From NCBI GenBank assembly GCA_016879935.1, contig JAACJQ010000343.1, forward strand, positions 1 to 64,000: a stretch of 64,000 bases of DNA, in the 5' to 3' direction. A model generated the notes under the pieces. It did not search any database. It was not told where the DNA came from and saw only the letters and a program-made list of their open reading frames with translations. Numbering within the stretch: position 1 is the first letter of the stretch; each line of letters opens with the position of its first letter. Position numbers and translations under genes: made by a program. Origin of the DNA: Archangiaceae bacterium. GTDB taxonomy: Bacteria; Myxococcota; Myxococcia; Myxococcales; Myxococcaceae. Below are positions 7,695 through 51,103 of this stretch, piece after piece.

Positions 7695-8792
7695 GTGACG
7701 CCCCGTCTCGTCGTCCTCACCAGCCTGCTCGTCAGCACCGTCTCGCACGGAGCCGACGTCATTCTCGCGGGCTCGGCGTCGCTCGATTACCGGCTCGTCT
7801 CGGGAGCGGCGCCTCCGACGAACCCCTCCCCGCTCGGCATCAACGGCATGACGTTCGAGCTCGCGCAGAAGGTGGTCGTCGACGTCGGCCACGGCGTCTC
7901 GTTCACGGTGAAGGCCTGCGGCGGCTGTCACGGCCTCGAGGTCGACCAGGGCTTCGGCGAGCTGCACGTGCGCCGCTTCTTCAACGTGCGCGCGGGGCGC
8001 CTCAACGTGCCCGTCGGCGAGTTCACCGTGCGCCACGACCCGACGAACTTCTCGACCCCGTCGAAGCCGCTGCCGTTCGCGATGGGCGACATGCTCCAGT
8101 ACGGGCGCTCGGCCTTCAACCTCGGCATCGTTCCCGCGCCCGCCGTCGACAACGGCGTCGAGGTGTTCGGCTCGCTCGGCCTCGGGAAGCGCGTGTCGCT
8201 CGACTACACGGTGAGCCTCATCAAGGGCCTGGCGGGCGACAACGACCTCGACTTCGCGCGCTCGCGGGTCTGGGTCGACAACAACCGAACCCCGGCCGTC
8301 GCCGCGCGCGTCGTGCTCACCGGGCCAGACTGGTCGTTCGGCGCCTCGGGAACGGCCGGCGCGTACGACGCGAAGGACTCCCTCTGGTACGCCATCGCGG
8401 GAGTGGAGGCCTACGCACGGCTGGGCATCGTCACGCTGCGCGCCGAAGCGCTCGCCCGCCGCACCGACCTCGACGCGACCGCGACGGGCTACCCGTTTCA
8501 GCTCATCGACGCGTGGTTCCTCAAGGCTGGCTGGTACGCGCAGGCCGACGTGCAGCTCCATCGGCTCGTCACCCTCGTGCTGCGGAGCGACGGCCTGCAT
8601 CGGTTCGGCATGCCCCTGCCCGACAGTGAGCTGACGACTGCGTCGGCGGGCGTGCAGCGTCAGACGGTGGCGGCCTTCGTGCGCGCGAACGACTTCGTCG
8701 CCTTCAAGGCCGATTACGAGCTGTGGACCTTCACCGGCACCACCTTCCCCCTTCGCCACGTCGGGCGCGTCGCGCTCGTGCTCGGGTACTGA
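7695..8792 (+). CDS. Outer-membrane beta-barrel protein with one CxxCH motif
   Basis: GTG start, then a signal peptide (MTPRLVVLTSLLVSTVSHGA). The rest is amphipathic strands with many Tyr/Phe/Trp and ends in tyrosine (VGRVALVLGY), as outer-membrane barrels do. Residues 75-79 read CGGCH, a c-type heme attachment motif, in an early loop. Asp/Asn-rich turns and the absence of other domains fit a porin of 12-16 strands. Its stop is 3 bases from the start of a diheme cytochrome c gene, so the pair is probably co-expressed and may form an electron conduit across the outer membrane. Heme binding by the barrel is inferred from the motif alone. Confidence 0.7.
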   Translation: MTPRLVVLTSLLVSTVSHGADVILAGSASLDYRLVSGAAPPTNPSPLGINGMTFELAQKVVVDVGHGVSFTVKACGGCHGLEVDQGFGELHVRRFFNVRAGRLNVPVGEFTVRHDPTNFSTPSKPLPFAMGDMLQYGRSAFNLGIVPAPAVDNGVEVFGSLGLGKRVSLDYTVSLIKGLAGDNDLDFARSRVWVDNNRTPAVAARVVLTGPDWSFGASGTAGAYDAKDSLWYAIAGVEAYARLGIVTLRAEALARRTDLDATATGYPFQLIDAWFLKAGWYAQADVQLHRLVTLVLRSDGLHRFGMPLPDSELTTASAGVQRQTVAAFVRANDFVAFKADYELWTFTGTTFPLRHVGRVALVLGY

Positions 8793-8795
8793 CCG

Positions 8796-9419
8796 ATGCT
8801 CGCGCTCCTCGTCACCTTGAGCCTCGCTGCGCCCCCCAGCACGCGGCTGCTGTACGAGCAGAAGTGTCTGTACTGCCACTCCGAAGAGGTCTCGGAGCGC
8901 GTGCGTCTCACCGAGCCACAGTGGCGGCGCCTCATCGAGCAGATGCGGCAACGAGCGCCGGTGCTCATCACGCGCGGAGATGTCTTCACGTTGAGCCGGT
9001 ACATGGTGAACGGGTTGAAGCTGGTGCCCGCGCAGAAACCGGTGGTCGCCGTCACGAAGCCCGACTCGCTCGGAGCCGACCTGCGCCTTGCCGACGCGGG
9101 CGTTCCCCGCGACGTTCCCCTGCCGACGCCCATCGATCCGCTCCCCGAGGAGCCGAACGCCGACGAGCTCGCGCTGGCCGAAGAGGGCTTCGCGCTGATG
9201 CAGACCAGGTGTTCACGGTGCCACACGCTCGGGCGGGTCTACGGAAAGCTCGACACGCTGGAGCGGTCGCTCAACGTCATCGAGCGCATGTCGCTCAAGA
9301 CGGGCTCGGGCATCACCGAAGACGATCTGCGGGTGCTCGAGGCGTACCTGCGCTCGCAGTTCGAGCGGCCACTGCAGAGCGCAGCAGAACCGGTGGGTCG
9401 AGCCACGTCGCCGCGGTGA
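8796..9419 (+). CDS. Diheme cytochrome c
   Basis: The 207-residue protein starts MLALLVTLSLAAPPS, a short signal peptide. Two c-type heme sites are visible: CLYCH at residues 24-28 and CSRCH at residues 139-143, each followed by a helix-rich domain with Met residues that could be axial ligands (for example RMSLKTG near 165-170). A Pro-rich linker (about 100-122) separates the domains. It lies 3 bases behind the barrel protein that also carries a CxxCH motif, which suggests periplasmic electron transfer to that partner. Confidence 0.82.
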   Translation: MLALLVTLSLAAPPSTRLLYEQKCLYCHSEEVSERVRLTEPQWRRLIEQMRQRAPVLITRGDVFTLSRYMVNGLKLVPAQKPVVAVTKPDSLGADLRLADAGVPRDVPLPTPIDPLPEEPNADELALAEEGFALMQTRCSRCHTLGRVYGKLDTLERSLNVIERMSLKTGSGITEDDLRVLEAYLRSQFERPLQSAAEPVGRATSPR

Positions 9420-9450
9420 TGGGCTCACACCAGTCGCGGCTGCGCGCCCG

Positions 9451-37114: not shown

Positions 37115-38224
37115 ATGCCCAATGTGTCTGGCCCGTCCGGCCCCCGTCCGCTCCCTGGTACTGGCTCCGTCTCGTCGACCACTCCGACTGCGCCTACCGC
37201 TCCGACCACCCCCACCGAGACCACCCAGAGCACCGGTTGGGCTGCCGGCACTGGCAGCCGGGGCACGGTGAACCCGAACGTCGCGCCGCCGCCTCCGAGC
37301 GCCGCCGACGTGCAGGCGACGTTGCCGAACCCGGTGCGCCAGGCGGTGAACGCGAACATCGATCGCCTCAACTCGCGCATCGAGACGGCGCTCGGTCACG
37401 ACGCGATGAGCATGGCCCGGGGCCGCACTCCGGTTCGTGAAGGTGACGTGCTCACCGACGCGCAGCAGACCGAGCTCAAGAACGCCTCCATCGACTTCAT
37501 GAAGGACATGCCCATCGGCGCGCTCTCGCCCGAGATCGCCGGCGCGGTGCAGGAGCGCCTCTCGGCCGCTGGCATTCAGGTTCGCGACATCAACAGCACC
37601 AAGCTCGGCGACCTCGGCAACATCGGCGGCGACATCGCCAAAGACCTGCTGAAGGACCTCAAGCAGGACTCGCCCGCGGCGTTCTACGGCCTCGCGGCCG
37701 GCGCAGCGGTGGCGGCTGGCTACGCGGCGTACTCGGGCGGCAGCCAGAAGCTGCAGAAGCTCGGCATCAAGCCCGAGATCAAACAGAAGTTCTTCGACGA
37801 CAAGCTCGAGGTGAAGCTGCGCGGTGACTGGCAGTCGCACTTCAAGGACTTCAAGGTCTCGGGCAGCGCCACGTACACGCAGCAGATCGACAACTGGAAG
37901 CTGTCGGGCTCCATCTCGGCCGACTCGACCGGCCTCACGGGCGCCGGCCTGCGCGCGCAGTACGACACGAGCACGCTCTCGGCGAACGCCTACGTCAACG
38001 CGAACCGCAACGGCCTCGAGAACGTGGGCGGCTCGGTCGTCTACCGGCCCAACGACAACTTCCGTCTCTCGGCGGGCGTCGATCACAACTTCCAGACCAA
38101 CCGCACCACAGCGAACGCGGAAGCAGCGTGGAAGGTGCGCGACAACGTCGACTTCGCGCTCTCGGCCAGCCACGACAGCCAGGGCGACTCGCGCATCGGC
38201 GCCGGCCTTCGCATCAGCTGGTAA
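37115..38224 (+). CDS. Putative beta-strand-repeat envelope protein
   Basis: A 369-residue protein of unknown family. It starts with a Pro/Thr/Ser-rich tail without a signal peptide, then a helical region (residues 75-180) and one hydrophobic helix (AAFYGLAAGAAVAAGYAAY, near 190-208). The last 150 residues alternate polar and hydrophobic positions in strand pairs (FKVSGSATYTQQIDNWKLSGSISAD, FRLSAGVDHNFQ) and end GLRISW with a terminal aromatic residue, as in outer-membrane barrels. The route to the envelope is unclear. It diverges from the Skp-like gene across 37 bases. Confidence 0.6.
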   Translation: MPNVSGPSGPRPLPGTGSVSSTTPTAPTAPTTPTETTQSTGWAAGTGSRGTVNPNVAPPPPSAADVQATLPNPVRQAVNANIDRLNSRIETALGHDAMSMARGRTPVREGDVLTDAQQTELKNASIDFMKDMPIGALSPEIAGAVQERLSAAGIQVRDINSTKLGDLGNIGGDIAKDLLKDLKQDSPAAFYGLAAGAAVAAGYAAYSGGSQKLQKLGIKPEIKQKFFDDKLEVKLRGDWQSHFKDFKVSGSATYTQQIDNWKLSGSISADSTGLTGAGLRAQYDTSTLSANAYVNANRNGLENVGGSVVYRPNDNFRLSAGVDHNFQTNRTTANAEAAWKVRDNVDFALSASHDSQGDSRIGAGLRISW

Positions 38225-38413: not shown

Positions 38414-39142
38414 ATGGCTTTGCCGTTGCACCAGCGCCGGGCCGTGAAAATCGGTCTGGCCGCGGTGGCCATCGCGATGACGACGGGGTGCGTGACGGTC
38501 TACCAGCCGCTGGTGGGCCTGCAGCGGCCCATCGCGCTCGACCCTCAGACGCCGACGAACTTCACCGACAACACGCGCGTGCTGGTGCGGTGTCACCCGG
38601 GTGATGGCGTCGAGGCCGACGTGCTCTGCCGCAACGTGCGCAGCTCGCTGTCGAAGCAGGGCGCGACCGTCACCACCGAGGTCGTTCGTCCTTCTGGCAA
38701 GGTGGCCGCGCCAGACCGCATCGAGACGCCGCCGCAGTTCATCATCGACATCACCTCGAAGCTCATTCACCACGACGACAGCGCGCTGCTCTCGCTGCTT
38801 TGCATCGCCTCGTTCACCCTCATCCCCGCGGTCGAGGAGTGGACCTTCGGCCAGGAGATTCGCATTCGCGACGCGCAGGGTTTTCTGCTCGCGCAGCAGT
38901 CGTTTCAGGAGCGGTTCGTGGAGTCGTTCGGGCTCGGCGTCTGGGCCCTCAACGGCATCATCGACCTGCTGATCAGACCGAAGAGCGAACAGGTGACGGG
39001 CGACGGCTACAAAGAGGAGTTCACCCGCGACCTGCACGGGCACCTCGCGCAGCTGCTCTACAACGCGAAGGTGCGCGCACGCGTGATGAACAGCTTCGCG
39101 CCCGAGCCGAGCGCCGAGAAGCCGAAGGGTACCGCGCCATGA
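38414..39142 (+). CDS. Outer-membrane lipoprotein, first gene of the motor-like operon
   Basis: The 242-residue protein begins MALPLHQRRAVKIGLAAVAIAMTTGC, a lipoprotein signal (lipobox TTGC), behind a GAGGAG ribosome site. NTRVLVRCHPGDGVEADVLCRNVRSSLSKQGATVTTEV looks like the CsgG/LpoB type of alpha/beta domain, which is inferred from pattern only. A hydrophobic helix (LLSLLCIASFTLIPAVEEW) lies in the middle. The stop overlaps the next start as ATGA. Confidence 0.7.
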   Translation: MALPLHQRRAVKIGLAAVAIAMTTGCVTVYQPLVGLQRPIALDPQTPTNFTDNTRVLVRCHPGDGVEADVLCRNVRSSLSKQGATVTTEVVRPSGKVAAPDRIETPPQFIIDITSKLIHHDDSALLSLLCIASFTLIPAVEEWTFGQEIRIRDAQGFLLAQQSFQERFVESFGLGVWALNGIIDLLIRPKSEQVTGDGYKEEFTRDLHGHLAQLLYNAKVRARVMNSFAPEPSAEKPKGTAP

Positions 39143-39762
39143 ACCGCGCCCTTCTGCTCTGTGCGCTCAGCAGCTGCGCCATCGACACGCTGGCTTTCAA
39201 GACGAAGGCCGAGCGGCGAAACCTCGACTGCCAGCGGCTCTCCGACGTCGAGGCCGCCGCGCGCTACCCGGGCCAGGTGCCGCCGCCGCCGGCGAAGGAG
39301 CTCGCAGGTGGCGTCGGTGACGTGCTCGCGTGCTCGACGCGCTATCTGGAGACGGGGGAACGGCCGAACCGTGACGAGGCCATCCTCTCCAGCTTGTCGA
39401 CGCAGGTGACCGAGCTCGCCGACAGCGCCGGCGCGATGGCGCCGCAGACGACGCGCTGGCACGTCGACGCCTTCTACCCGTCGCTGCCGGTCGCCCAGAA
39501 GATCGCCGTCGCCGCACGCACCACGCTGGCCCAGCGCGGCTTCATCGTCTCTGACCGCGTACCGACGCTCGCCGCCGGTGACGTCGCGTTCCTGGTCACG
39601 CTGCCGCAGAGCGAGGTCTACCGAATCGCGTGCGCCCGCTCGTTCGTGACCGAAGTGCTGGGCCCCGACGAGGCGCTGCTGGGGTTGATGATCGTCGACC
39701 CGAAGGAGACCCAGCTGCACGGTGGCGTCTGTCTTCGGGGCGAGTGGAGGTGGCTGCCGTGA
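39139..39762 (+). CDS. Small lipoprotein of the motor-like operon
   Basis: MNRALLLCALSSCAIDTLAF is a lipoprotein signal (lipobox LSSC). The 207-residue protein has a Pro-rich segment after residue 45 and a C-terminal alpha/beta stretch (FYPSLPVAQKIAVAARTTLAQRGFIVSDR) reminiscent of the lipoprotein encoded before it. No known family is recognised. The ATG overlaps the upstream stop and its own stop overlaps the next GTG as GTGA. Confidence 0.7.
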   Translation: MNRALLLCALSSCAIDTLAFKTKAERRNLDCQRLSDVEAAARYPGQVPPPPAKELAGGVGDVLACSTRYLETGERPNRDEAILSSLSTQVTELADSAGAMAPQTTRWHVDAFYPSLPVAQKIAVAARTTLAQRGFIVSDRVPTLAAGDVAFLVTLPQSEVYRIACARSFVTEVLGPDEALLGLMIVDPKETQLHGGVCLRGEWRWLP

Positions 39763-40940
39763 GGGCCGCGCTCCTCTTCAGCCTCGTGTCGACGGTCGCC
39801 TTCGCGGAGGAGGTCGACCTGAACGCGAAACAGGTCGAGCTGCTGCGCGCCGAGGTCGCGAGCGACGTGCAGCTGCAGGCGGCCGAGCTCATCGACGAGC
39901 TCGTCTACGGGTGGACCAAGGAGAGCCCCTTCGACGTCGACACGGGCGTGGTGCTGGCGGGGGTCTCGGTGCCGGTCTCGCTGGGCACCGGGCTCGAGGC
40001 GTACCTCGAGAACCACGTCGCCGGCCTCGTCGTGAAGAACCCGAAGACGCACGTGCAGTTCGTGCACTGCCCGGCGTGCTCGGCGTGGGTCGTTCACTCG
40101 GGCGCGAAGGGCACCGTGGTGACGCGCGGCTACGACGACCCCGAAGCGCTCGCGCAGGCAGGCATCTCGTCTGGCGCGAAGCACGCCCTCTTCCTCGACT
40201 TCGAAGCCGAAGGCGCCTCGCTCGTGCTGCGCGCGCGCATCACCACGCTCGAGCCGTCGCTGCGCATCGTCTCGGCGCGCACCTTGTCGACCGCGACCTC
40301 GACGCCCGCGATGCTCCGTGACGGCGCGAAGCTCACGAGCGTGGCCGAGGCCCGCAAGGAGTACCTCGACGCGCTCGGCGGCCGCGGCTTGTTCCTGGTG
40401 CCGGTGCGCGTCGGCATTCGCAACTACGCCTCGGGCACGCAGTCGACGACCAACGCGACGCCGTTTCTGTGGGTGAGCGCCGGCTTCGAGGCGGCCTTCA
40501 CGCAGGCGCGCGCGTGGACGGCGAGCCTCAACGCCGCGTTCAGCTGGTTGCCGCAGTCGCACGTCGCCGTGATGGCGCAGGGTCGCATCTCGAGGCTGCT
40601 CACCGGCAGCGCGACGTCACTGACGTGGCCCGATCTCTACGCCTTCGTCGGCGCTGGCGTTCTCTTCGGCCAGGGGCGCGGCATGCTCATCTTCCGCACC
40701 AGCCAGAACCCCACCATCGACGAGATTCTCAACACGAGCACCAACAACGAGCCGCGCTCGACGCTGGGCATTCTCACCATCGGCGCAGAGCTGCGCGTGA
40801 AGAACCGCATCAGCCTCATCGCCTTCCTCGAGACGCTGCCGGCGCTCGAGAACGAAGACAACATCGGCACGTACGTCACGATTCCGCTCATCAACCTGCG
40901 CTTCCAGTCGTTCGGCGTGGAGGTGTCGTTCTGCTTCTGA
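39759..40940 (+). CDS. FlgO/CsgG-like N-domain with C-terminal barrel, copy 1
   Basis: GTG at 39759 gives VRAALLFSLVSTVAFAEEV, a cleaved signal. Residues 20-200 follow a CsgG/FlgO-like pattern: a helix, VVTRGYDDPEALAQAGISSGAKHALFLDF, then SLVLRARITTLEPSLRIVSARTLS. The second half alternates beta strands (GLFLVPVRVGIRNYASG, AFVGAGVLFGQGRGMLIFR) and ends VEVSFCF, fitting an outer-membrane barrel. A two-Cys HCPAC motif lies near residue 92. It probably forms part of an outer-membrane ring or channel. The family assignment is by pattern, not search. Confidence 0.65.
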   Translation: MRAALLFSLVSTVAFAEEVDLNAKQVELLRAEVASDVQLQAAELIDELVYGWTKESPFDVDTGVVLAGVSVPVSLGTGLEAYLENHVAGLVVKNPKTHVQFVHCPACSAWVVHSGAKGTVVTRGYDDPEALAQAGISSGAKHALFLDFEAEGASLVLRARITTLEPSLRIVSARTLSTATSTPAMLRDGAKLTSVAEARKEYLDALGGRGLFLVPVRVGIRNYASGTQSTTNATPFLWVSAGFEAAFTQARAWTASLNAAFSWLPQSHVAVMAQGRISRLLTGSATSLTWPDLYAFVGAGVLFGQGRGMLIFRTSQNPTIDEILNTSTNNEPRSTLGILTIGAELRVKNRISLIAFLETLPALENEDNIGTYVTIPLINLRFQSFGVEVSFCF

Positions 40941-41908
40941 CGCGCGCGCTCTGTGTGGCGGTGCTGGTGTCGTCGCTCCCGGCGATGGCGCAACGTGAGG
41001 CCACGCGTGGAGCGCTGGCGCGCCTCGAGGAGTCGTTGCCCCGCCGCCTCAACGACGGCGTGCTCTCGCTGAAAGACCTCACGCCGGCCATCGTCGTCAG
41101 CACCCAGCCGGCCTTCGAGCAGACGCGCGCCTGGTACCCGGCGGCCGCCATCACCTCCCTCGCTCGCGTGCTGGGCGCCGGTTCGCTGCGCGCGTGTGAA
41201 GCGTGCATGGCGCAGCGGCTCACGGTGGAGGACGGCCGCATGGAGCAGGTCGCCACCAGCCTCTCGGTGCAGGACCTGGTGCGCCTCGACGAGCTCACCC
41301 GTGGAGCGTCGGCGCGCGCGGTGACCGCCATCTGGCTCGACGAGACGATGGAGGGCGTGGCGGTGCGCATCGTCGACCTGCGCAACGGCCGTATTCTCAT
41401 CGCCGAGAACGTCGACCAGAACCTCGCCTCGGTCGCCGCCAGCCGCACGACCACGACGCAGGCCGAAGAGCTCGAGCGGCGCATCGCGGGCAAGAGCCTC
41501 ACCCACGCCTTCGCCGACTTCGGCCTGCTGCCGCAGCAGCACATCGCGCTCGAGTGGCACGAGCAGTGGGGCCCCGACAACGCGAACCTCTCGGGCTTCG
41601 CGGTCTCGATCATCGACCCGTTCATCGGGCTCGGCGTCAGCTACTTCCGCGTCATTCCTCCAGCGTTCAACCTGATGGTGGGCGGCAAGTTCTTCGTCAG
41701 CGTGCCCAACGCCATCATCAACGCGCTCAACCCCGACAACCCGCAGGCGCTGCTGGGTGACAACACCTTCACCGGCGTGTTCTCGCTACGCCTGCCGCTC
41801 TTCAAGACGAACTACGCGCTCTTCGCCTCGGTCTCGACGAACGGCCGCGTCTCGGTCGGCATCTCGCTGCTCAACGTCTCTCTTCTGCCGCTGCCCTTCC
41901 TGCCATGA
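40937..41908 (+). CDS. FlgO/CsgG-like N-domain with C-terminal barrel, copy 2
   Basis: No ATG, GTG or TTG gives a full signal; CTG at 40937 (CTGA overlap with the upstream stop) yields LTRALCVAVLVSSLPAMAQ, a good signal, while GTG at 40955 would lack the basic residue. Residues 20-190 repeat the architecture of the preceding protein (VAVRIVDLRNGRILIAENVDQN), with CEACM near 80. The C-terminus is strand-rich (YFRVIPPAFNLMVGGKFFVSV) and ends LLPLPFLP. Probably a paralogue of the preceding gene. It ends with an ATGA overlap. Confidence 0.65.
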   Translation: MTRALCVAVLVSSLPAMAQREATRGALARLEESLPRRLNDGVLSLKDLTPAIVVSTQPAFEQTRAWYPAAAITSLARVLGAGSLRACEACMAQRLTVEDGRMEQVATSLSVQDLVRLDELTRGASARAVTAIWLDETMEGVAVRIVDLRNGRILIAENVDQNLASVAASRTTTTQAEELERRIAGKSLTHAFADFGLLPQQHIALEWHEQWGPDNANLSGFAVSIIDPFIGLGVSYFRVIPPAFNLMVGGKFFVSVPNAIINALNPDNPQALLGDNTFTGVFSLRLPLFKTNYALFASVSTNGRVSVGISLLNVSLLPLPFLP

Positions 41909-42537
41909 ACCGACTGCTCATCATCGCTGCCTGCGTGTCGTGCGCGTCGTGCGCGGCGAGGAACTACACGTATTACCTGATCGAACCGACGGTGAAGAAG
42001 AACACCACGCTGAAGGAGGACGACACGCTCGTGCGTCCCTTCGGGTACGGCTCGACGACGGTGATGAAGGTGCGGTGGAACGACGGCAAGGTGATGACCG
42101 AGGTCGACGTGCCGGTGCTCGCTTCGGGCCAGCGCATCGTGGTGGAGCACGGCGCCGGAAACTCGGGCGTGAAGACCATCGCCCCGATGCGGGTGGTGCC
42201 GCCGCCTCCGACGAAGGCCGACACCTCGCTGGTCGAGGCGTACCGCTCCCGCGGCCTCAAGATCGACGAAGACGCGCCCGACGTTTCCATCACGCGCGCG
42301 CAGAACCTGATGCAGGAGGCCACGCGCGCCGGGAACTACGCGCTCGCGCTCGAGTGGTGCGAGACGGTGCTGCAACGCTACAAAGCGCACCCCGAGTTCC
42401 TGCGGGCCAAGGCGTCGCTGCTGCTGATGATGGGCGAGCGCGACAAGGCCATCGAAGTCTACGAGGCGGCCGAGGCCGTCGAGAGTGACCCCGCCGTGCG
42501 CAAGAAGCTCGAAGAGCTGCGCCGGCAGCAACCCTGA
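41905..42537 (+). CDS. TPR-containing lipoprotein
   Basis: The 210-residue protein starts MNRLLIIAACVSCASCAARNY, a signal with Cys suited to lipidation. After a beta-rich part (MKVRWNDGKVMTEVDVPVL) the last 75 residues form TPR helices (AQNLMQEATRAGNYALALEW; RAKASLLLMMGERDKAIEVYEAAEAV). TPR lipoproteins commonly organise multi-protein envelope machines; here it precedes the stator pair. Confidence 0.75.
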   Translation: MNRLLIIAACVSCASCAARNYTYYLIEPTVKKNTTLKEDDTLVRPFGYGSTTVMKVRWNDGKVMTEVDVPVLASGQRIVVEHGAGNSGVKTIAPMRVVPPPPTKADTSLVEAYRSRGLKIDEDAPDVSITRAQNLMQEATRAGNYALALEWCETVLQRYKAHPEFLRAKASLLLMMGERDKAIEVYEAAEAVESDPAVRKKLEELRRQQP

Positions 42538-42555
42538 CGAAACGAAGGAGACACC

Positions 42556-43269
42556 GTGCAGCTGCTCGGAATCGCCGTGCTTGCATTCATCGTGTGGTTT
42601 GGCTTCGCCGATCGCGACTCGACTCGCGCGGTCTCGGCGTTCGACCTTCACGCGCTCATCATGGTCGTCGTCGGCTCGTCGTCTGCGGTGCTGCTCTCGT
42701 CGTCGGCCCGCAACGCCCTGCGCACCCTGCTCGCCCTCAAGGAGCTGGTGCCCGGCCTGCGCTCGTTTCACGCCACCACCGAGACGATGGAGAAGGAGCG
42801 CGAGGAGATCTGCACGCTCTGGAAGAACGGGCAACGCAGCGCCGCCGTCGCGCTCGCCGAGAAGTCGTCGTTCTCGTCGACGAAGCACGTGCTCGAGCTC
42901 CTGCTCCAGCGCGCGCCCGAGGCCTCGAGCGCGAAGGTCTTCACCGAGCTGCGCCACGACGAGATCAGCGACTGGCAGCCCGCGATTCACAACTGGGAGA
43001 TGCTCTCGAAGCTCGGGCCCGCGTTCGGAATGGTCGGCACCATCACCGGCATGATTCAGCTCTTCAAGAACATGTCGTCGGAGAACCTGAACATCGGCGC
43101 GGCCATGTCGTTGGCGCTGCTCGCGACCTTGTACGGCGTGGCGTTCGGCGCAGGCATCGCGGGCCCCATCGGCCACTTCTGGAACGGGCTGCTCGACGAG
43201 CGCCTCGGCCTGCTGGAGCGCTGCGAGAAAAGCGTGAACGAGCTCGCGTCGCGCGGAGCGGGGGCGTGA
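42556..43269 (+). CDS. MotA-type stator protein
   Basis: GTG start behind AAGGAG. The 237-residue protein follows MotA topology: two N-terminal helices (LLGIAVLAFIVWFGF; DLHALIMVVVGSSSAVLL), a cytoplasmic loop of about 95 residues with a charged segment (FTELRHDEISDWQPA), then two helices. The third helix carries the MotA/TolQ signature LGPAFGMVGTITGMIQLFKN and the fourth MSLALLATLYGVAFGAG. It would form a proton channel with the MotB-like protein encoded next. Shorter than flagellar MotA (about 290 residues) and too short for ZorA. Confidence 0.88.
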   Translation: MQLLGIAVLAFIVWFGFADRDSTRAVSAFDLHALIMVVVGSSSAVLLSSSARNALRTLLALKELVPGLRSFHATTETMEKEREEICTLWKNGQRSAAVALAEKSSFSSTKHVLELLLQRAPEASSAKVFTELRHDEISDWQPAIHNWEMLSKLGPAFGMVGTITGMIQLFKNMSSENLNIGAAMSLALLATLYGVAFGAGIAGPIGHFWNGLLDERLGLLERCEKSVNELASRGAGA

Positions 43270-43270
43270 G

Positions 43271-43894
43271 ATGAGACGACGCTCCGGAGGAGAGGAGTCG
43301 TGGCTCTTGAGCTACGCCGACCTCATCACCAACCTGCTGCTGTTCTTCGTGGTGCTGCTCACCGCGGCGAACTTGAGCAAGGGCCGCATGCAGCAGATCG
43401 CCAAGAGCCTCTCGGGCGCCGAACAACCGGCCAGCCTCGAGTCGATTCGCAAGGAGATCGATCAGCGCATCGCCGACCAGCAGCTCAAGGACCTCGTCTC
43501 GACGACGGTGACGAACGACGGCCTCGAGATCTCGCTGAACTCGGGCCTCGTCTTCGACTCGGGCAAGGCCGCCGTGCGCCCCGAGATGGAGTCGGTCGTG
43601 ACCAGCATGCTCAAGACGCTGGAGCCCTACGGCAAGCGCTACAGCTTCGCGGTCGAGGGCCACACCGACTCGAACCCGGTGGCCGCGGGCGGCGCGTTTC
43701 AGAGCAACTGGGACCTCGCGGCCGAGCGCGCCATCGTGGTGCGCGAACGCCTCGAGAACGTCGGCATCCCCCGCGAGCGGGTGCGCGTCGAGGGCTACGC
43801 CGACACCAAGCCCCTTCCCGTCGAACAAACCCAGGGCCTCACGGTGGAGCAGAAGAACGCCCGCCTGCGCCGTGTGGTGGTGAGGATCTACTGA
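43271..43894 (+). CDS. MotB-type stator protein with OmpA peptidoglycan-binding domain
   Basis: The 207-residue protein begins with a basic tail, then WLLSYADLITNLLLFFVVLL; Asp17 matches the proton-binding Asp32 of MotB. A plug/linker segment follows, then an OmpA-like domain: FDSGKAAVRPEM, VEGHTDSNPVA, NWDLAAERAIVVRERL, VEGYADTKPL. This anchors the stator to peptidoglycan. The start lies 2 bases after the MotA-type stop and the stop overlaps the next gene (TGATG). Together with the MotA-like protein it should form a proton-driven stator. Confidence 0.92.
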   Translation: MRRRSGGEESWLLSYADLITNLLLFFVVLLTAANLSKGRMQQIAKSLSGAEQPASLESIRKEIDQRIADQQLKDLVSTTVTNDGLEISLNSGLVFDSGKAAVRPEMESVVTSMLKTLEPYGKRYSFAVEGHTDSNPVAAGGAFQSNWDLAAERAIVVRERLENVGIPRERVRVEGYADTKPLPVEQTQGLTVEQKNARLRRVVVRIY

Positions 43895-45732
43895 TGCGAA
43901 CGACCCTGCTTCTCACGTTGTTCGCCTCGGTGGCCCTCGCGCAGCCGGCCGCCACGCCACCTCCGCCTGCCGCAGCGCCCGTGGCGGCCCCTGCGCCTGT
44001 CCCGCCACAACGAACGATTCCTCCGCAGATCGTGCTCGAGGTGCGTGAGCTCGAGCGGCAGTTCGATCAGGCGCTCCTGCGTGACTGCGCGCCCGAGCGA
44101 TGCTCGTCGAAGGGCTGCGTGTATCGCGAACACCTCGCGGTCGACCTTCCCGCGAACACGACGTCCCTCCCCGGTCTCGGGGCCAACGAAGGCCCGGGCA
44201 CCACGGCGCCGCAGCTGTACCTGACCCAGGCGCGCTGCGAGTTCACGCACGAGAAGTCGGTGCCCGCGCGCGACGTCGAAGCGCTCTCGCGGCGATTGGA
44301 GCAGCGGCTCTCGAAGGGGTTCCTGCGCGTCGTCGTCTCGCGCCAGGTGCTCGAGCCGATCTCTCCGTCGCTCGCCGACTCGCCACCGCCCAAAGAAGAC
44401 AAACCGCCAGAGAAGAAAGAGGAGCCCAAAGTCGACCTGCCGCCTCCGCCGCCACCGAAGTGGGACGCCGACGTGGCGCTTCGCGAACTCTGGCAGGCGC
44501 TATTGCCGCACTTCAGCTGGATGATCGCCGTCTTCCTCGCGACCCTCGCGACGATGACCATCATCTGGGCCGCGCGCCGGCTCGGGAAGGAGTCGCTCGA
44601 GGAGAAGGCGATGGCCGCGCAGCTCGCCAACGCCACGCCCGAGAAGAAGGAAGAGCCTGTCGAAGAGAAGAAAGAAGAACCGGCTCCAGACGCCGACGCG
44701 GCCTTCGTCACCGAGCAGCAGAACGCGTGGGCCAAACGCATCTCCGACGCGCCGCTCGAGAAAGACGACGCGCTGGTGGGGCACCTGCTCCGTGAGTGGC
44801 TGCGGCAGGGCGAGTTCGCGCTGCTGGCCAAGGCGACGGTCATGTTCGGCGACCGCCTGTCGATGGCGTTCCAGGCCGACTCGACGCTCGCGCCGCGCAA
44901 GTCGGAGCTCGCGCAGTTCCTCAAGGCGCTCGACCCGGCGACGTTGCCGACCGACGCGCAGTTCTTCCGCACGCTGAACCAGAACGCGGTCGCGGCGTCG
45001 TTGCTCGCGCAAGCCGACACCGAGGTCTACCGCAGCCTGCAGGACGAGTTCGGCTCGGCAGCGCTGGTGCAGATGATCGAGAAGCTGCCACCGAGGCAGG
45101 GCGCGTTGTTGTTCGCGCTCGCGCCGCTGGACCGGCAGGACGAGGTGGCGCGCCTGCTCCCCTACCCGCTCAAAGTGGGCGTCGCGCACCAGCTGCTCCA
45201 GTCGAACCGCAGCTCGAAGCAGGAGCGCGCGGCGCTGTTCGACGCCGTCGGCAACGCGCGTGAAGGCCGGCCGCTCAAAAACGGACATCACCCGATGCCC
45301 GACGTGCTCGACCAGGGCCAGGAGTTCGACGCGGCGGGCGCCTTGTCGGTGTTGCTCTCGCACCTCGAAGACGCCGACCGGAAGCAGCTCTTCGAGCAGG
45401 CGCTGTCGGGTGACGGCTTCCCCGGCTGGTACGAGAACATTCTGTCTCCGCAGATGCTCCTGCGCGTTCCCGCAGAGCAGCGCGCCGACCTGCTGCTCGA
45501 GGTCGACGTGCGTGGCCTCGCGGCGTGGCTGTCGCTGCAACCCGCCGCGCGACGTGACGCGCTGGTGAATCAGCTCTCGGGCTCGGTGCAGACGGCCATC
45601 AAAGCCAGCATGTCGTTCGGCTCGCGGGTGGAGCAGCTCGACCTCGCGCGCAAAGGCCAGGGAGAGCTGGTGGCCTCGGTGAAGCGCCGCATCGCGCGCG
45701 GCGCCCTCTCGTTCCCCGAGCTCGTGAACTGA
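43894..45732 (+). CDS. Membrane protein with FliG-like C-terminal domain (possible rotor)
   Basis: 612 residues: signal peptide (to AQ, residue 17), periplasmic domain of about 150 residues with five Cys, a Pro/Lys-rich stalk (163-189), one membrane helix (206-228), an acidic linker, and a cytoplasmic helical part. Residues 380-435 have an ARM-like pattern (LPPRQGALLFALAPLDRQDEVARLLP). Residues 518-605 match the FliG torque domain layout: QRADLLLEVDVRGLAAWL, then RRDALVNQLSGSVQTAIK and a closing helix ending RRIARGALSF. This FliF-like anchor plus FliG-like end, next to MotA/MotB genes, suggests a rotor. The domain claim rests on pattern and context. Confidence 0.72.
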   Translation: MRTTLLLTLFASVALAQPAATPPPPAAAPVAAPAPVPPQRTIPPQIVLEVRELERQFDQALLRDCAPERCSSKGCVYREHLAVDLPANTTSLPGLGANEGPGTTAPQLYLTQARCEFTHEKSVPARDVEALSRRLEQRLSKGFLRVVVSRQVLEPISPSLADSPPPKEDKPPEKKEEPKVDLPPPPPPKWDADVALRELWQALLPHFSWMIAVFLATLATMTIIWAARRLGKESLEEKAMAAQLANATPEKKEEPVEEKKEEPAPDADAAFVTEQQNAWAKRISDAPLEKDDALVGHLLREWLRQGEFALLAKATVMFGDRLSMAFQADSTLAPRKSELAQFLKALDPATLPTDAQFFRTLNQNAVAASLLAQADTEVYRSLQDEFGSAALVQMIEKLPPRQGALLFALAPLDRQDEVARLLPYPLKVGVAHQLLQSNRSSKQERAALFDAVGNAREGRPLKNGHHPMPDVLDQGQEFDAAGALSVLLSHLEDADRKQLFEQALSGDGFPGWYENILSPQMLLRVPAEQRADLLLEVDVRGLAAWLSLQPAARRDALVNQLSGSVQTAIKASMSFGSRVEQLDLARKGQGELVASVKRRIARGALSFPELVN

Positions 45733-45734
45733 CG

Positions 45735-47795
45735 ATGCCCTCGACGCGCGCCACGCACCGGTTGCTGATGACCGTTCTGGCGGGCGTCGTCTCGTCGTGC
45801 GTGATCGACCCCATCAGCGGGCTGCCCGTCGGCTGCGGCAAGGTGGGCATCACCGACATCAACGCGAGCTTCGCCATCTCAGACGTGAGCTGGTTCGAAG
45901 ACGAGCAGACGATGTTCGTCTTCTATCGCGCCGACGCGGAGCAGGGCTTCGGGCCCGAGACCGTCATCGAGCTGAAGTACCGCACCGACGACGTCGACGT
46001 GCCGTGGACGATCCTCGACAAGTTCACGCCGGTGCACACGCACCTCGCGGTCGACTGTGGAGAGAAGGCGCGCTGCGGCAGCTTGAGCCTCAAGGTCGAG
46101 AAGGTGCCGCGCGACGTGGGGCTGCGCCTTCGCTACCACCGCAACGGTTCGACGGCGCTCACCTCGACGGTGAACCTCAACATCGTCGGCCTCGGCCCCG
46201 CCAACCTCGTGCGCAGCCTCGCGGTGTACGGCGTGTTCGACGAGAAGAACCAGCAGGTGCAGTGGCGCTCGCGCAACCAGTTCCCCACCATTCGCAACGA
46301 GCAGGCCACCGAGCTGGGGCTGCGTCGAACGTTCAAGGTGACCGACGCGACGTACGGCACCTCGCAGCTGCCCGGCCCCGAAAACCCGTACGCGTATGCG
46401 TTCTCGCCCGTCTGCCCGGCCGACTTCACGAGCCTGCCGTGGCCCGAGCGCACGACCCTGGAGCGCGCCATCTTCGAGCCGAGCGCCTTGCCGCTGGCGG
46501 CGTCGACGTCACCAGTCGTCTGCGCCAACGCGACCGTCACCGACGCCATCGGCGAGTACACGACCGCGGCCATCGCGCGAAAGAACCCCGAGGTGCGGCC
46601 CGCCTTCCCCGCGCTGCGCAGCCCGATTCGGCCCAACACGCCCGTCGGCTTCATCTTGCGCATCTGCAATCGCGTCATCTCGCAGGAGCACCTCGACATG
46701 CAGATTCAGCGGCTGCTCGTCTCGGGCGAGCCGGAGATCTGCCTCGACGACTTCGACTCCGAGCGCTTCTCGGAGCGCGTGGCGTCGACCATCAAGACGC
46801 GCATCGACGCCGTGCGCCTGAGTGGGCAAGACATGGTGCTCGTGCTCGTGGTGCATCACGACGACACGACGGGGAAGATCGGCAAGGTCATCGAGTCGGC
46901 GCTCGAGCAGGTGCTGATTCCCGAGCGCGACAAGAGCTCTCCACGGGTGAGCGGCGCGTTCCTCTTCGACAGCTCGGCGTACCGCATCACCTCGAACCCG
47001 CTGAAGTCGGTGGTGCTCTGGTGCCCGTCGCGGCTCATCAGCATGTTCGACATCGACGTGGTGCCCGCGGCCTCGGAGCGTGACTGCTCCATCGTGCCCG
47101 ACCAACCCGACCTCGTGCTCGGGCCGTTCAAGCTGAACCAGCTGCCGATTCTCGCGACCCGCGAGCAGTACCTGAAGTTCATCGCCAAGTACTCGGCGGC
47201 GCAGGCCGGGTTGATGAAGAAGATCTCGTACTCGGCACCCGAGCGCACCGCGATCTCCGAGAACGTGGCCGTCGGCGAGGTCGGGCTCGTCACCAAGTTC
47301 AACAACGAGACCATCAGCGCCGCACCCGAAGACGCATTCTCGTTCTGCGCCAGCGAAGACCAGGGCGTGGCGCGCGTGGTGGTGCAGCCCGTCGGAACGC
47401 CCGCAGGCACGCTCGTGCAGCTCAACCTGCTGCCGCGCCTGCATCGTGAAATGCCGTTTCAGCTCTACGCGCTCGGGCTGGCCTGGGAGTCGCCGTTTCT
47501 GATTCGGGCCGAGTACCAGACGAGCCTCGCTGCTTCGGCCACCGTCGCGGGCTTCACCGTGCCCTTCGGCATCAACAGCGCCGACGAGGACTACCTGGGC
47601 AACGAGCAGTGGAAGCGCGACGTGTTCCCGCTCTCTGACGCGCTCGCGCAGTGCACGCGGTTCTGCGACCACCCGACCTTCGACTCCGACGGCGTGTTCC
47701 AACCGCTGGCGTCGTTTCGCGTCGCGTTCGGGGAGCAGTGTTACCGGCCAAAGTTCCCCATTCCGAACGAGGGAGGGTTCCCTCGTGATCCTTGA
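45735..47795 (+). CDS. Large lipoprotein of the motor-like operon
   Basis: The 686-residue protein begins MPSTRATHRLLMTVLAGVVSSC, a lipoprotein signal (lipobox VSSC). The body is beta-rich with several Cys pairs. One stretch (QDMVLVLVVHHDDTTGKIGKVIESALEQVLIP, residues 370-400) resembles an alpha/beta (Rossmann-like) segment. No family is recognised. Its 3' end overlaps the next gene by 11 bases, so it is part of the operon. Confidence 0.75.
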   Translation: MPSTRATHRLLMTVLAGVVSSCVIDPISGLPVGCGKVGITDINASFAISDVSWFEDEQTMFVFYRADAEQGFGPETVIELKYRTDDVDVPWTILDKFTPVHTHLAVDCGEKARCGSLSLKVEKVPRDVGLRLRYHRNGSTALTSTVNLNIVGLGPANLVRSLAVYGVFDEKNQQVQWRSRNQFPTIRNEQATELGLRRTFKVTDATYGTSQLPGPENPYAYAFSPVCPADFTSLPWPERTTLERAIFEPSALPLAASTSPVVCANATVTDAIGEYTTAAIARKNPEVRPAFPALRSPIRPNTPVGFILRICNRVISQEHLDMQIQRLLVSGEPEICLDDFDSERFSERVASTIKTRIDAVRLSGQDMVLVLVVHHDDTTGKIGKVIESALEQVLIPERDKSSPRVSGAFLFDSSAYRITSNPLKSVVLWCPSRLISMFDIDVVPAASERDCSIVPDQPDLVLGPFKLNQLPILATREQYLKFIAKYSAAQAGLMKKISYSAPERTAISENVAVGEVGLVTKFNNETISAAPEDAFSFCASEDQGVARVVVQPVGTPAGTLVQLNLLPRLHREMPFQLYALGLAWESPFLIRAEYQTSLAASATVAGFTVPFGINSADEDYLGNEQWKRDVFPLSDALAQCTRFCDHPTFDSDGVFQPLASFRVAFGEQCYRPKFPIPNEGGFPRDP

Positions 47796-48576
47796 GGCGT
47801 TGGCCATCGTGGTGATGGCTGCGGCGCCCGATGGAGGCGTCGCGGCGGGCCCAGTCGACCCCACACCTGACACGAGCATCGAGCGCTACCGCACGCCGCT
47901 CGAGGCGTTGACGGAGCGGCCGGTCGGGGAAGCGTCGCGCGCGGTTCGTTTCGACTGGCGCCGCTCGCGCGTGGGCTTCGGCGTCATCAGCAGCAGCCTG
48001 CTCGAGCTGAACAACTACTCGTCGTTCCGCATCGGCGGCTACGTACGCAAGGCGCTGGGCAACGTGATGCTCGATGCCTCGGTCACGTACGTCTTCGTCT
48101 TCGGCTCCGACGCGACCAGCAAGCTGGCCCTCACGCCGTACCGCCAGTACGGCCGGCCCAACCGCCTCGAGCTCGACATCAACTTTGGCTACGCGATCGC
48201 CGAAGGCGTCGTCACCTCACGGCCCGGCATCGTGCCCGCAGCGCAGATGGTGCTGACGGCCAACGCAGGCGTGCGGTACCTCTTCTATCCCGGTGGGCTC
48301 GCGGGCGTACCCGCGCTCGACGTCGCCGGAGCCATCTTCAACCCGCGCATCAGCGACGCCGAGATCAAGAACCTCGACAAGGTGCGCCTCGCCGCGATGC
48401 AGGTCGATCGCGCGCGCTACTAATTGCTGGCCGGCTTCACGCTCGACATCTACTTCCAGCCGGGCGTCGCGGTGACGCCACGGGTGATGATGGCGATTCC
48501 CGTCTTCGGCGGCATTCAGGGCGCAGGCCTGGGCTGGTGGTGGGAGCTGTCGCTCGCCGTCGGAGCCGCGCTGTGA
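47785..48576 (+). pseudogene. Outer-membrane barrel gene interrupted by an in-frame stop
   Basis: GTG at 47785 (after a GAGGGAGGG site) gives a signal (MILEALAIVVMAAAPDGG) and amphipathic strands up to residue 212, where TAA at 48421-48423 stops translation (last residues DRARY). The same frame then runs on for 50 codons with barrel-like sequence (LLAGFTLDIYFQPGVAVTP, then GLGWWWELSLAVGAAL) to TGA at 48574-48576. The next gene starts with GTG at 48573, overlapping that TGA as GTGA, the standard junction in this operon. The upstream TAA is therefore most likely a recent nonsense mutation or a sequencing error. The truncated product is 212 residues. Confidence 0.78.
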
Positions 48577-50459
48577 GCCTCGCGCTGGTGCTCTCGGTGC
48601 TCGCGGCCGCACCGGCGCCCATCGACGAGGTGCCCAGACAGACCGCCGTCTTCTTCAACGCCCGCGTCGCGCAACGACAGAAGAAGCACGCCGAGGTGCT
48701 CTCGCTGTGGCTGTTGCGCAATGGGCTCGTCGACGCCGGCAAACACGGCACGCACGACGGGCCGTTCCGTTCGCTCGTCTGGGCGGCGACCGGTGCCATC
48801 GGCATCTGCCAGGACGGCTTCCCACGCGACGACGAAGACGATGGCGCCGGGCTGTGGCCGCTCGGCCTGCACAACCACATTCTCACCGCGAAGCAGGCTG
48901 ACGAGCTGCCCACGCCGTACGAAGCGTTCGACGTCGGCCGGCAGCAGCGGCTCATCTCGCTCAACGACGTGCTCGACGACGAAGAGCTCGAGTCGGTGAC
49001 CTTCTCGCAGACGAGCTGTTTCACGCCTGCCATCGCGCTCTTCGAGTACGGGTACAACCCGCTGGGCGACTTGTCAGACCGGCTCGTGTCGGGGCCGTTG
49101 CTGCGGCGGCTGCTGGTGAAGTCGCTCGAGACGGTGCGGCGAGATCGCGTCACCACCGTCGCGGCCATCGAGGCGCGCATCTTCGATCTCGATCTCGCGC
49201 TCACCGAGCTGCGCAACCGCAAGAAGAAGGAGGTCGCCGTCGACGTCGCCTCCGAGGTGCGCGGCGCGAACATGTCGGTCGCCGCGGGCAAGCAGGCGGG
49301 CGCGCAGGCCGCGAAGAAGCTCGACGAGCCACGACAGGTCGCCTTCCTGCAACGCACGCTGCGCTGGCAGCCGGCCGAGTGGCTCACGCTGAGCAAGACG
49401 CGCCGCGAGTTCCTCTTCTCGCATGCCCGGAAGCAGGCGACCGATCACCCGGCGCTCCAGCAGCTCACGCTCGGCATCGTCGACGCGCTGGTGGCGAAGA
49501 ACGAGGGCGCCGAAGCAATGGGGTGGATCGGCACCATCGAGGCCGAGTTCGAGCGTCGCGACGTGTGGGACGGCGCGCGAGGTGAGCGGCTGCTCTCGCT
49601 CTCCGACGACTCCGGTTTCCGCGAGCGCTCCGTCATCGCGTTGCACCGCGGTGTCGAGCAGCTGGAGCGTGGCGCACTGGCTGACTCGCTGCGCAGCTTC
49701 GCGTTCGCGCTCAAACACTCCGAGACGTCGACGATCGACTCGACCGTTCACCCGCTCGCGCGCCGGTGGTTGTCGTACGTGCTGTCGCGCTACGAGACGA
49801 ACGCCGAGATCCTCGCGACGCTGAAGGCGCTCGTCCCCCGGCAGGACTTCAACCCCATCATCGAAGACCTCATCTGGGCTGCGGCGCTGCGGGCCGATGC
49901 GGTGTCGTTCGATCGCCTCGCGAACAGCGTGCAGCGCGGTGGCTCGTTCGACTCGAAGGTCGACCGGCTCTCGCTCATCGCGCACGGCAAGGCGGGCGAG
50001 CTGATTGGCCAGTTGAAGGCGAGCGCCGAAGAGGGCCCGTACGACACGCTGCGCTTCACGCGGCAGCTCGTCGACACGCTCGAGCGCGAAGAGGCCGACG
50101 TGCGCCGCGCGAACCGCGTGTTGCTGCAGCAGCTCATCGGCGTGCTCGACACCATCGCGACGCAACCGAACGCGGCGAAGACGACCGAGAAGACCGCGCG
50201 CGAGCTCGCCGGCCGCGTGCAGGCCTTGCTCGAAGCGATGGGGAGCGGCGCCGGGCCCAACGCAGACGTTCGCGCGATGAACCTCGCCCACTCGGCGTTC
50301 GCTGGCTCGTTGCGACTCGCTCCGTCTGATCCCCTGCCATGGCCCTTCGTGCCACCGAACGTCGAAGCACCCTCGGCCTTCACGCCATTTCAGCTCGTGC
50401 CCCTCGAGTGGCGTGACGAACACGGCAAGCTCGTCTTCGGTTGGAGGATCACCGAGTGA
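48573..50459 (+). CDS. Secreted helical-repeat protein of the motor-like operon
   Basis: GTG at 48573 gives VSLALVLSVLAAAPAPIDEV, a signal peptide. The 628-residue mature protein is mostly helical with TPR-like spacing (LQQLTLGIVDALVAKNEGAEAMGWIGTIEAEFERRDVW; AALRADAVSFDRLANSVQRGG). It likely sits in the periplasm as a scaffold. I do not recognise the family. GTG overlaps the ancestral stop of the barrel gene, and its stop overlaps the following GTG. Confidence 0.72.
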   Translation: MSLALVLSVLAAAPAPIDEVPRQTAVFFNARVAQRQKKHAEVLSLWLLRNGLVDAGKHGTHDGPFRSLVWAATGAIGICQDGFPRDDEDDGAGLWPLGLHNHILTAKQADELPTPYEAFDVGRQQRLISLNDVLDDEELESVTFSQTSCFTPAIALFEYGYNPLGDLSDRLVSGPLLRRLLVKSLETVRRDRVTTVAAIEARIFDLDLALTELRNRKKKEVAVDVASEVRGANMSVAAGKQAGAQAAKKLDEPRQVAFLQRTLRWQPAEWLTLSKTRREFLFSHARKQATDHPALQQLTLGIVDALVAKNEGAEAMGWIGTIEAEFERRDVWDGARGERLLSLSDDSGFRERSVIALHRGVEQLERGALADSLRSFAFALKHSETSTIDSTVHPLARRWLSYVLSRYETNAEILATLKALVPRQDFNPIIEDLIWAAALRADAVSFDRLANSVQRGGSFDSKVDRLSLIAHGKAGELIGQLKASAEEGPYDTLRFTRQLVDTLEREEADVRRANRVLLQQLIGVLDTIATQPNAAKTTEKTARELAGRVQALLEAMGSGAGPNADVRAMNLAHSAFAGSLRLAPSDPLPWPFVPPNVEAPSAFTPFQLVPLEWRDEHGKLVFGWRITE

Positions 50460-51103
50460 CGCGCCGGGAGCTGCGAGCGGCGATGAAGGCCCAGCGCGCC
50501 GCGATGAAGGAGCAGATGCGCGAGGTGAAAGCGCGCACCGAGGCCGCGCTCGCGAACGACCCGCACGTACAGAAGGCCCGACGGAGCCGGCGCCTCAAGC
50601 GCATCGCCGCCATCGCGCTGTTGCTGCTCCTGTTGCTGTTGATTCGCTGTGAAGGCCCGGGTGGCCCCGGCGAACCGGTCGCCCTCGCCGACGCAGGCAC
50701 GCCCGTCGAGAAGGAGCTCGCGAAGAAGCCGGTGGCGAAGTCGAAGCCGAAGAAGGTCTCGATCGCGCCGAAGCCCGTCGAGCGGCCCGACTTCGACGCG
50801 CCGTCTCGCCTGCAAGCCGCGTGGGTCGACGAATTCCGCATGCAGGTGGCGGCGCGTTCTCCCCGGCTCTCGGCGTGTTTCATCGGCAGCAACCGGCCGG
50901 GCGCGTTGCGGTGGACGACGCTCGTCTCGTTGCAGACCGGCGCCGTCGGCAATCACGAGTTCGAGTCGATGGGCGTGGCGGCCGACCTCACGAAGGCGCA
51001 GCTCGAGTGTCTTCAGGCCGTGCTGACGAAGCCGGAGTACCACCTCGGCGACGCTGCCATCGAAGGCCTGCCCGAGCGCGTGAGTCTGGTGCTCGAGTTC
51101 TAG
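50456..51103 (+). CDS. AgmX/PglI-type C-terminal domain membrane protein
   Basis: GTG at 50456 overlaps the previous stop as GTGA. The protein has a charged cytoplasmic helix (residues 3-40), one membrane helix (LKRIAAIALLLLLLLLIRC, about 45-63), a Lys/Pro-rich periplasmic linker, and a terminal domain of about 85 residues (LSACFIGSNRPGALRWTTLVSL ... LECLQAVLTKPEYHLGD). This is the TonB-like AgmX/PglI C-terminal layout; AgmX was first linked to gliding motility in Myxococcus. As last gene of the operon it may couple the inner-membrane motor to the periplasm. Confidence 0.72.
   Translation: MTRRELRAAMKAQRAAMKEQMREVKARTEAALANDPHVQKARRSRRLKRIAAIALLLLLLLLIRCEGPGGPGEPVALADAGTPVEKELAKKPVAKSKPKKVSIAPKPVERPDFDAPSRLQAAWVDEFRMQVAARSPRLSACFIGSNRPGALRWTTLVSLQTGAVGNHEFESMGVAADLTKAQLECLQAVLTKPEYHLGDAAIEGLPERVSLVLEF

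Follow-up and report, generated by a model that had tools for sequence, protein, structure and literature searches.

Twelve open reading frames, here called A to L, lie on the forward strand between positions 38414 and 51103 of the window, the whole 64,000-nt stretch analysed (Table 1). Neighbouring frames overlap by 1-11 bases or lie no more than 18 bases apart, in agreement with a preliminary description of about twelve same-strand, mostly overlapping genes. The sole apparent gap, between J and K, closes because the J frame runs on past an in-frame stop codon to 48575 and overlaps the likely K start at 48573. J orthologues are 252-290 aa long. The order A-L is collinear in distant Myxococcota families, as far as the contigs of the relatives examined reach, and the genes are not scattered. 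Pairwise dN/dS values of 0.13-0.57 place the operon genes under purifying selection. Together, collinearity and constraint indicate that the operon is more than a chance arrangement. A search for further conserved flanking genes turned up only antisense shadow ORFs of A-L.

Table 1. Genes of the operon and regions of protein H, with positions in the window.
Feature	Position	Strand	Description
Gene A	38414..39142	+	242 aa; predicted lipoprotein (ORF, lipobox by eye); conserved first gene
Gene B	39139..39762	+	207 aa; predicted lipoprotein, no known family; conserved in order
Gene C	39759..40940	+	393 aa; exported, probably outer membrane; conserved HCPxC motif
Gene D	40937..41908	+	about 320 aa; exported, probably outer membrane; start non-ATG, uncertain within 40937-40955
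Gene E	41905..42537	+	210 aa; TPR lipoprotein; TPR_19 28 bits
Gene F	42556..43269	+	237 aa; MotA-type stator subunit; MotA_ExbB PF01618 53 bits
Gene G	43271..43894	+	207 aa; MotB-type stator subunit; MotB_plug 52 bits, OmpA 56 bits
Gene H	43894..45732	+	612 aa; FliG-like membrane protein with a signal sequence, a periplasmic domain, a single TM helix and a FliG-like region in the cytoplasm
H periplasmic domain, residues 44-152	44023..44349	+	alpha-beta-beta-alpha-beta, ring-building-motif-like, conserved cysteines (models, Foldseek)
H TM helix, residues about 206-227	44509..44574	+	from sequence; helix 192-230 in model
H MgtE_N match, residues 341-425	44914..45168	+	26.6 bits; cut-off 25.9
H FliG_C match, residues 521-605	45454..45708	+	15.4 and 18.4 bits, below cut-off 23.3
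Gene I	45735..47795	+	686 aa; predicted lipoprotein, no known family; conserved in order
Gene J	47785..48575	+	exported, probably outer membrane; in-frame TAA 48421-48423 interrupts J in this genome
Gene K	48573..50459	+	about 628 aa; exported periplasmic protein, no known family
Gene L	50456..51103	+	215 aa; one TM helix, Lys/Pro-rich linker, conserved C-terminal domain

By sequence, F and G are a flagellar-type stator pair. The MotA-type channel first proposed for F is confirmed by its PF01618 match and by two trees that group it with flagellar MotA rather than TolQ/ExbB, with support of 100/100. The channel prolines P155 and P204 are invariant in the alignment, the cytoplasmic loop has 87 residues versus 82-85 in most flagellar MotA compared, and the nearest solved structures in the PDB are flagellar MotA/PomA. 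The proposal of a MotB anchor with a proton-binding Asp likewise holds for G, as evidenced by its plug and OmpA domains and by a conserved transmembrane Asp17 that aligns with Asp32 of E. coli MotB; among solved structures, flagellar stators come first.

G also scores up to 63 bits against ZorB models, as would be expected if the operon were a phage defence system of the Zorya kind with a ZorA/ZorB motor. Such matches are general among MotB proteins. F has no ZorA match, ZorC/ZorD and ZorE are missing as well, the other operon proteins match no defence model, and the operon holds no nuclease or helicase gene. Moreover, its conservation is fixed and vertical-looking, as opposed to the patchy context of defence islands. 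With G as the only match, a Zorya identity was rejected and can be given almost no credence.

The lipoproteins and exported proteins encoded around the stator genes were assigned from signal sequences and lipoboxes. A Pfam search with A gave no match. The TPR lipoprotein noted earlier is E, which retains about 70% identity in distant relatives. The labels originally attached to C and D (CsgG/FlgO) and to L (AgmX/PglI) had no convincing match in Pfam, NCBIfam or PDB sequences and are not supported. L resembles TonB in layout only, with no convincing match to TonB itself. No substrate, filament or adhesin gene pointing to an output was identified in the operon. What stands of the preliminary description is one conserved unit that joins a flagellar-type stator to a FliG-like protein of the membrane and to proteins of the envelope; motility or transport, as proposed there, may be its output.

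The FliG-like protein H calls for a closer look. The top 13 PDB matches to its predicted model in Foldseek are all FliG, at moderate model confidence (pLDDT 70, pTM 0.43). MgtE_N, whose domain type is akin to the middle domain of FliG, is found by Pfam in 16/16 H orthologues and FliG_C in 8/16. Direct sequence and profile comparisons of H with FliG give marginal scores, and a direct PDB sequence search with H returned nothing useful. H does not keep the charged torque positions of FliG (E. coli K264, R281, D288 and D289), which are mostly S, S/T, A and S/N there, so that any contact with MotA must use other residues. In the periplasmic domain, PrgK is the top Foldseek match and FliF is also found, with OsmC/Ohr scoring comparably; profile comparison of this domain with FliF or with the sister proteins described below gave no signal. 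Remote from FliG by sequence, H has a predicted fold that matches FliG before anything else. The initial FliG-like assignment is upheld by this fold, by the MgtE_N match in all 16 orthologues and by profile transitivity (see below), and is weakened by the sub-threshold FliG_C scores and the absence of the torque residues.

Two sister systems occur in other Myxococcota, for which no published name was found; they are named type II and type III here. As in the operon, genes for MotA, MotB and a signal-peptide-bearing, TM-anchored FliG-like protein lie side by side, so that this adjacency is seen in three locus types. The type II and type III FliG-like proteins share the layout of H and pass the Pfam FliG_C cut-off. 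Type II loci carry a relative of C (C profile against L078, E 1.5e-7) and possibly one of L (profile E 1.7e-4), and their MotA falls in a common clade with F. Type III loci differ from the operon in having two MotB genes and clear homology to both FliG and FliF RBM3, the latter assignment being supported by sequence profiles. The type III protein is a natural FliF(RBM3)-TM-FliG fusion in a single chain that adjoins MotAB. In both types, most of the A-L genes are missing or unrecognisable.

These loci provide the profile link between H and FliG, which runs via the type II and type III proteins and was computed with L073, which is part of the L076 type III protein, left out. They also bear on the possibility that H is unrelated to FliG, being a helical-repeat membrane protein beside MotAB that came to look like FliG by convergence. 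The weak direct profile scores and the absent torque residues would fit such an origin. However, FliG leads the structural matches, MgtE_N is present in all 16 orthologues, the H-FliG profile link far outscores reversed and other-gene controls, and proteins of the same layout in the sister loci have clear FliG homology. Convergence is therefore improbable.

A different role for H follows if the operon is a Ton/Tol-like energiser, in which MotAB would act through L, making it pull an assembly that C, D, J and the lipoproteins form at the outer membrane, and H would be a scaffold rather than a turning rotor. The ExbBD-TonB and TolQR-TolA systems are likewise proton-driven inner-membrane complexes that act on the outer membrane. 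The TonB-like layout of L with its conserved C-terminal domain, the missing torque residues of H and the wealth of outer-membrane proteins in the operon are all consistent with such a mode of action. On the other hand, the operon MotA lies across the 100/100 branch from ExbB/TolQ, G carries the plug and OmpA domains of a flagellar MotB, L lacks a convincing TonB match, and the MotA-MotB-FliG-like adjacency is repeated across three locus types. This explanation is unlikely, if less so than convergence.

The relation to the flagellum was assessed across genomes. No flagellar genes were recognised in the ORF listing of the window, which agrees with the earlier observation that flagellin, hook, rod and export genes are missing there, and profile searches found no export, rod, hook, filament or FliM/FliN genes among A-L. 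A flagellar cluster lies elsewhere in this genome and encodes a MotA, a MotB and a FliG of its own. Among 195 Myxococcota genomes, 27 carry the operon. Fifteen of these carriers have no canonical FliG; 12 of the fifteen genomes, among them that of Archangium lansinium, are at least 95% complete, and 14 of the fifteen also lack a flagellar MotA match. Since the operon persists in these genomes, it is not a flagellar part.

A related idea is that the operon supplies the flagellum with further stators, either accessory ones or a second set, and that H serves as an alternative to its rotor protein. Flagellum and operon do occur together in all seven genomes of the source genus, and in G006 they share one contig. 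The FliG-less carriers speak strongly against this arrangement, as do the many flagellated relatives without the operon and the MotA and MotB that the flagellum already has. It is strongly disfavoured, with only the Zorya explanation less probable.

On balance, the analysis leans towards a self-contained, proton-driven motor that spans the envelope and is distinct from the flagellum. In such a motor, the MotB OmpA domain would tie MotA5MotB2 units to the peptidoglycan, and the units would turn as protons pass at Asp17 of MotB. The MotA cytoplasmic loops would then push the FliG-like cytoplasmic region of H, a protein in which the roles of FliF and FliG may be merged in one chain. With its periplasmic domain, predicted to be ring-building-motif-like, and its single TM helix, H could assemble in the inner membrane as a ring or a row. 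Its movement, rotary or otherwise, may travel via K, I and L to the outer membrane and there reach the lipoproteins A, B and E together with the exported C, D and J, with surface movement or outer-membrane work as the putative output. The proposed motor shares with the flagellar motor a stator of the flagellar branch and a FliG-like predicted cytoplasmic fold, and its periplasmic domain may resemble the ring motifs of FliF. It differs in that the operon encodes no FliM, FliN, export apparatus, rod, hook or filament, and in that the FliG-like part is fused to a TM helix and to a domain in the periplasm.

MotAB stators are familiar as parts of the flagellum. To our knowledge, no account of their non-flagellar relatives ExbBD, TolQR and AglRQS includes a FliG-type rotor. 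A recent survey that covered 379 A subunits assigns the flagellar-type stators to a single group (the FIT branch), which serves the flagellum, and places AglRQS with the generic TolQR/ExbBD types (PMC12505986). The Agl-Glt gliding machinery of Myxococcus xanthus resembles the proposed motor in joining a proton-driven stator relative to a many-protein envelope machine in myxobacteria, but the operon MotA belongs to the flagellar branch, and the parts of the Agl-Glt accounts consulted describe no FliG-type rotor (PMC9120999, PMC9389320). The myxobacterial non-flagellar type III secretion system, also of flagellar ancestry and from the same bacterial group, keeps export and ATPase genes, and MotAB is reported absent (PMC3459982). 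The operon is the reverse, with MotAB present and export and ATPase genes absent.

No description of a non-flagellar MotAB-FliG system was found in the open-access literature, consistent with the first impression that none was known. The twelve-gene set, carried by some soil myxobacteria and among them by species that have no flagella, joins a flagellar-type proton-driven stator to a membrane-anchored FliG-like protein and outer-membrane proteins, and this pairing suggests an undescribed envelope-spanning machine made from flagellar motor parts. Here, flagellar-type stators adjoin FliG-like proteins in bacteria that lack both the FliG and the MotA of the flagellum, making the operon a testable case of a motor without a propeller that bears on the origin or reuse of the flagellar motor. 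It is possible, but doubtful, that the flagellar stator-rotor pair has a third use here, in a motor to which no filament is ever attached, and that MotAB with a FliF/FliG-like rotor is maintained in at least three versions among myxobacteria, one of them with FliF RBM3 and FliG in a single chain. A tree test does not separate an F clade nested in flagellar MotA from one that is sister to it (p-AU 0.49). If the operon-type and type II MotA branch below all flagellar stators, they would be living relatives of a pre-flagellar motor.

The best-supported reading of operon A-L is a proton-driven machine distinct from the flagellum: the MotAB stator (genes F and G) would drive the FliG-like membrane protein H, and H would act on partners at the outer membrane. 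We infer rotation, ring formation by H and an output. The window, contig C316, comes from a 9.5-Mb draft genome. The preliminary description of about twelve same-strand genes with mostly overlapping ends holds: there are twelve, and neighbouring ends overlap or nearly touch. The proposed MotA- and MotB-type pair is confirmed by Pfam matches of F to PF01618 (53 bits) and of G to MotB_plug (52 bits) and OmpA (56 bits), and the proposed TPR lipoprotein is gene E. Apart from E, F, G and H, no operon gene has a convincing Pfam or NCBIfam family. Gene J carries an in-frame TAA while its 14 compared orthologues are intact, with no stop at that position, suggesting either a recent nonsense change that interrupts J in the source genome or a draft error.

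Coordinates of the operon, neighbouring features and related loci
Feature	Sequence	Position	Remarks
Gene just upstream of the operon	window	37115-38224	369 aa, beta-rich repeats; conserved next to A-L in genus members only
Operon A-L	window	38414-51103	
In-frame TAA of J	window	48421-48423	reading frame otherwise stays open to 48575 and overlaps the K start
Type III locus (Myxococcota)	L075	8433-12818	
Type III locus (Myxococcota)	L076	6372-10651	
Type III loci (Myxococcota)	L156, L158, L159		
Flagellar fliG of a genus mate	G006:C39	27 kb	
Operon of the same genus mate	G006:C39	65-78 kb	~40 kb from fliG
Protein with weak FliG_C matches	L002 (G000:C364)	7979-9427	483 aa

The operon behaves as a unit among relatives. 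A search of 60 of them finds H in 7/7 genus members and in scattered family and order members. By tblastn on neighbourhoods, and as far as contigs extend, the order and strand of A-L are kept in 15 related genomes. The same holds for Archangium lansinium, Archangium violaceum and Hyalangium versicolor, as well as for two distant genomes (G182 and G185), where identity is 35-67%. No further flanking gene is conserved in these neighbourhoods. Pairwise dN/dS for operon genes is 0.13-0.57, lowest for MotA. H occurs in 27 of 195 Myxococcota genomes (14 genera, one weak match counted), the group to which the sensitive profile searches were confined; a pattern scan of all GTDB species found 19 H loci, none labelled as another phylum.

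An accessory role for the operon in flagellar function is disfavoured. A flagellar cluster does lie on contig C117 of the source genome, with FliG and MotA identified by profile and search and MotB, FlgD, FlgE, FliM, FliP, FlhB, FlhA and others recognised by eye from sequence and order. However, the operon persists where canonical FliG does not: 12 of the 27 carriers have it and 15 lack it, and 14 of those 15 also lack a flagellar MotA match (the exception, G056, is 86% complete). Twelve of the 15 are at least 95% complete, A. lansinium and further Archangium genomes of 100% completeness among them. The operon is absent from many flagellated relatives.

Profile searches give flagellar MotA/PomA and MotB as the nearest solved relatives of F and G. 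In two trees, the second including named flagellar stators from several phyla, MotA of the window and of the sister type II loci joins flagellar MotA (100/100) as against TolQ, ExbB and seven paralogues from the source genome; placement of the window clade inside versus beside the flagellar clade gives p-AU 0.49 in the second tree. Conservation extends to the MotB aspartate and to two MotA prolines (E. coli positions 173 and 222). The main rival explanation makes L, which has one transmembrane (TM) helix, the working part of a Ton-like energiser; identity with the Zorya phage-defence system is disfavoured.

The proposed likeness of H to FliG stands in its predicted fold and through intermediates, and is marginal as a direct match. 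In H a signal sequence is followed by a periplasmic domain, a single TM helix and a long stretch in the cytoplasm. In Pfam, MgtE_N passes the cut-off whereas FliG_C falls short; among orthologues, MgtE_N is found in 16/16 and FliG_C, weakly, in 8/16. All top 13 PDB matches of the AlphaFold2 model (pLDDT 70, pTM 0.43) are FliG (best E 6e-4), the structure models being predictions from shallow alignments. The periplasmic fragment is modelled as alpha-beta-beta-alpha-beta, the ring-building-motif layout, with PrgK as best PDB match (E 7.9e-4), FliF MS rings next and OsmC/Ohr at similar scores.

Following weak FliG_C matches leads to two sister classes of locus. Type II loci (L078-L082, L150, L151 and others) have adjoining genes for MotA, MotB and a FliG-like protein that bears a signal peptide and whose FliG_C scores exceed the cut-off (two proteins tested, at 26.6 and 33.5 bits); the rotor profile matches in 17 Myxococcota genomes, and A. 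lansinium carries type II alongside the window type. Nearby lie a relative of C (E 1.5e-7) and perhaps one of L (E 1.7e-4). In type III loci, the gene for a FliG-like protein comes first, then another gene (weakly TPR-matching in L076), then MotA and two MotB genes. This protein has a signal peptide, a cytoplasmic part that is clearly FliG (E 8e-23) and a periplasmic part matching the ring-building motif RBM3 and the second TM helix of FliF (94.8%, E 4.8e-8). These profile matches indicate that a FliF(RBM3)-TM-FliG single chain exists in nature beside MotAB; H has the same layout. Some type III carriers, such as G054, have a flagellum elsewhere, and others, such as G015, show no canonical FliG.

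Profile comparison of H gives E 0.006 for FliG, 0.0024 for type II and 0.001 for type III, against 0.09 or worse for the controls (H in reverse and nine further genes of the operon). In a set of 4,100 ORFs, window H scores E 6e-4 with the type II profile, outscored only by other H proteins and by type II and type III proteins, one type II-like fragment included. Together, these values support remote homology of H and FliG via the intermediates; in direct comparison the homology is marginal. E. coli FliG K264, R281, D288 and D289 correspond mostly to S, S/T, A and S/N in H; type II has glutamates at both 288 and 289, and type III keeps R281 together with a glutamate at 289.

The available portions of a recent MotAB-family survey, which describes flagellar-type and generic types, include no myxobacterial FliG-linked stator system (PMC12505986), and those of a 5:2 motor review (PMC9389320) and a gliding review (PMC9120999) mention none; this absence is weak evidence because the papers are open-access only. 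The myxobacterial type III secretion system is reported without FliG (PMC3459982). At one such locus (L002), the 483-aa protein sits between apparent SctJ and FliH/FliI-type genes.
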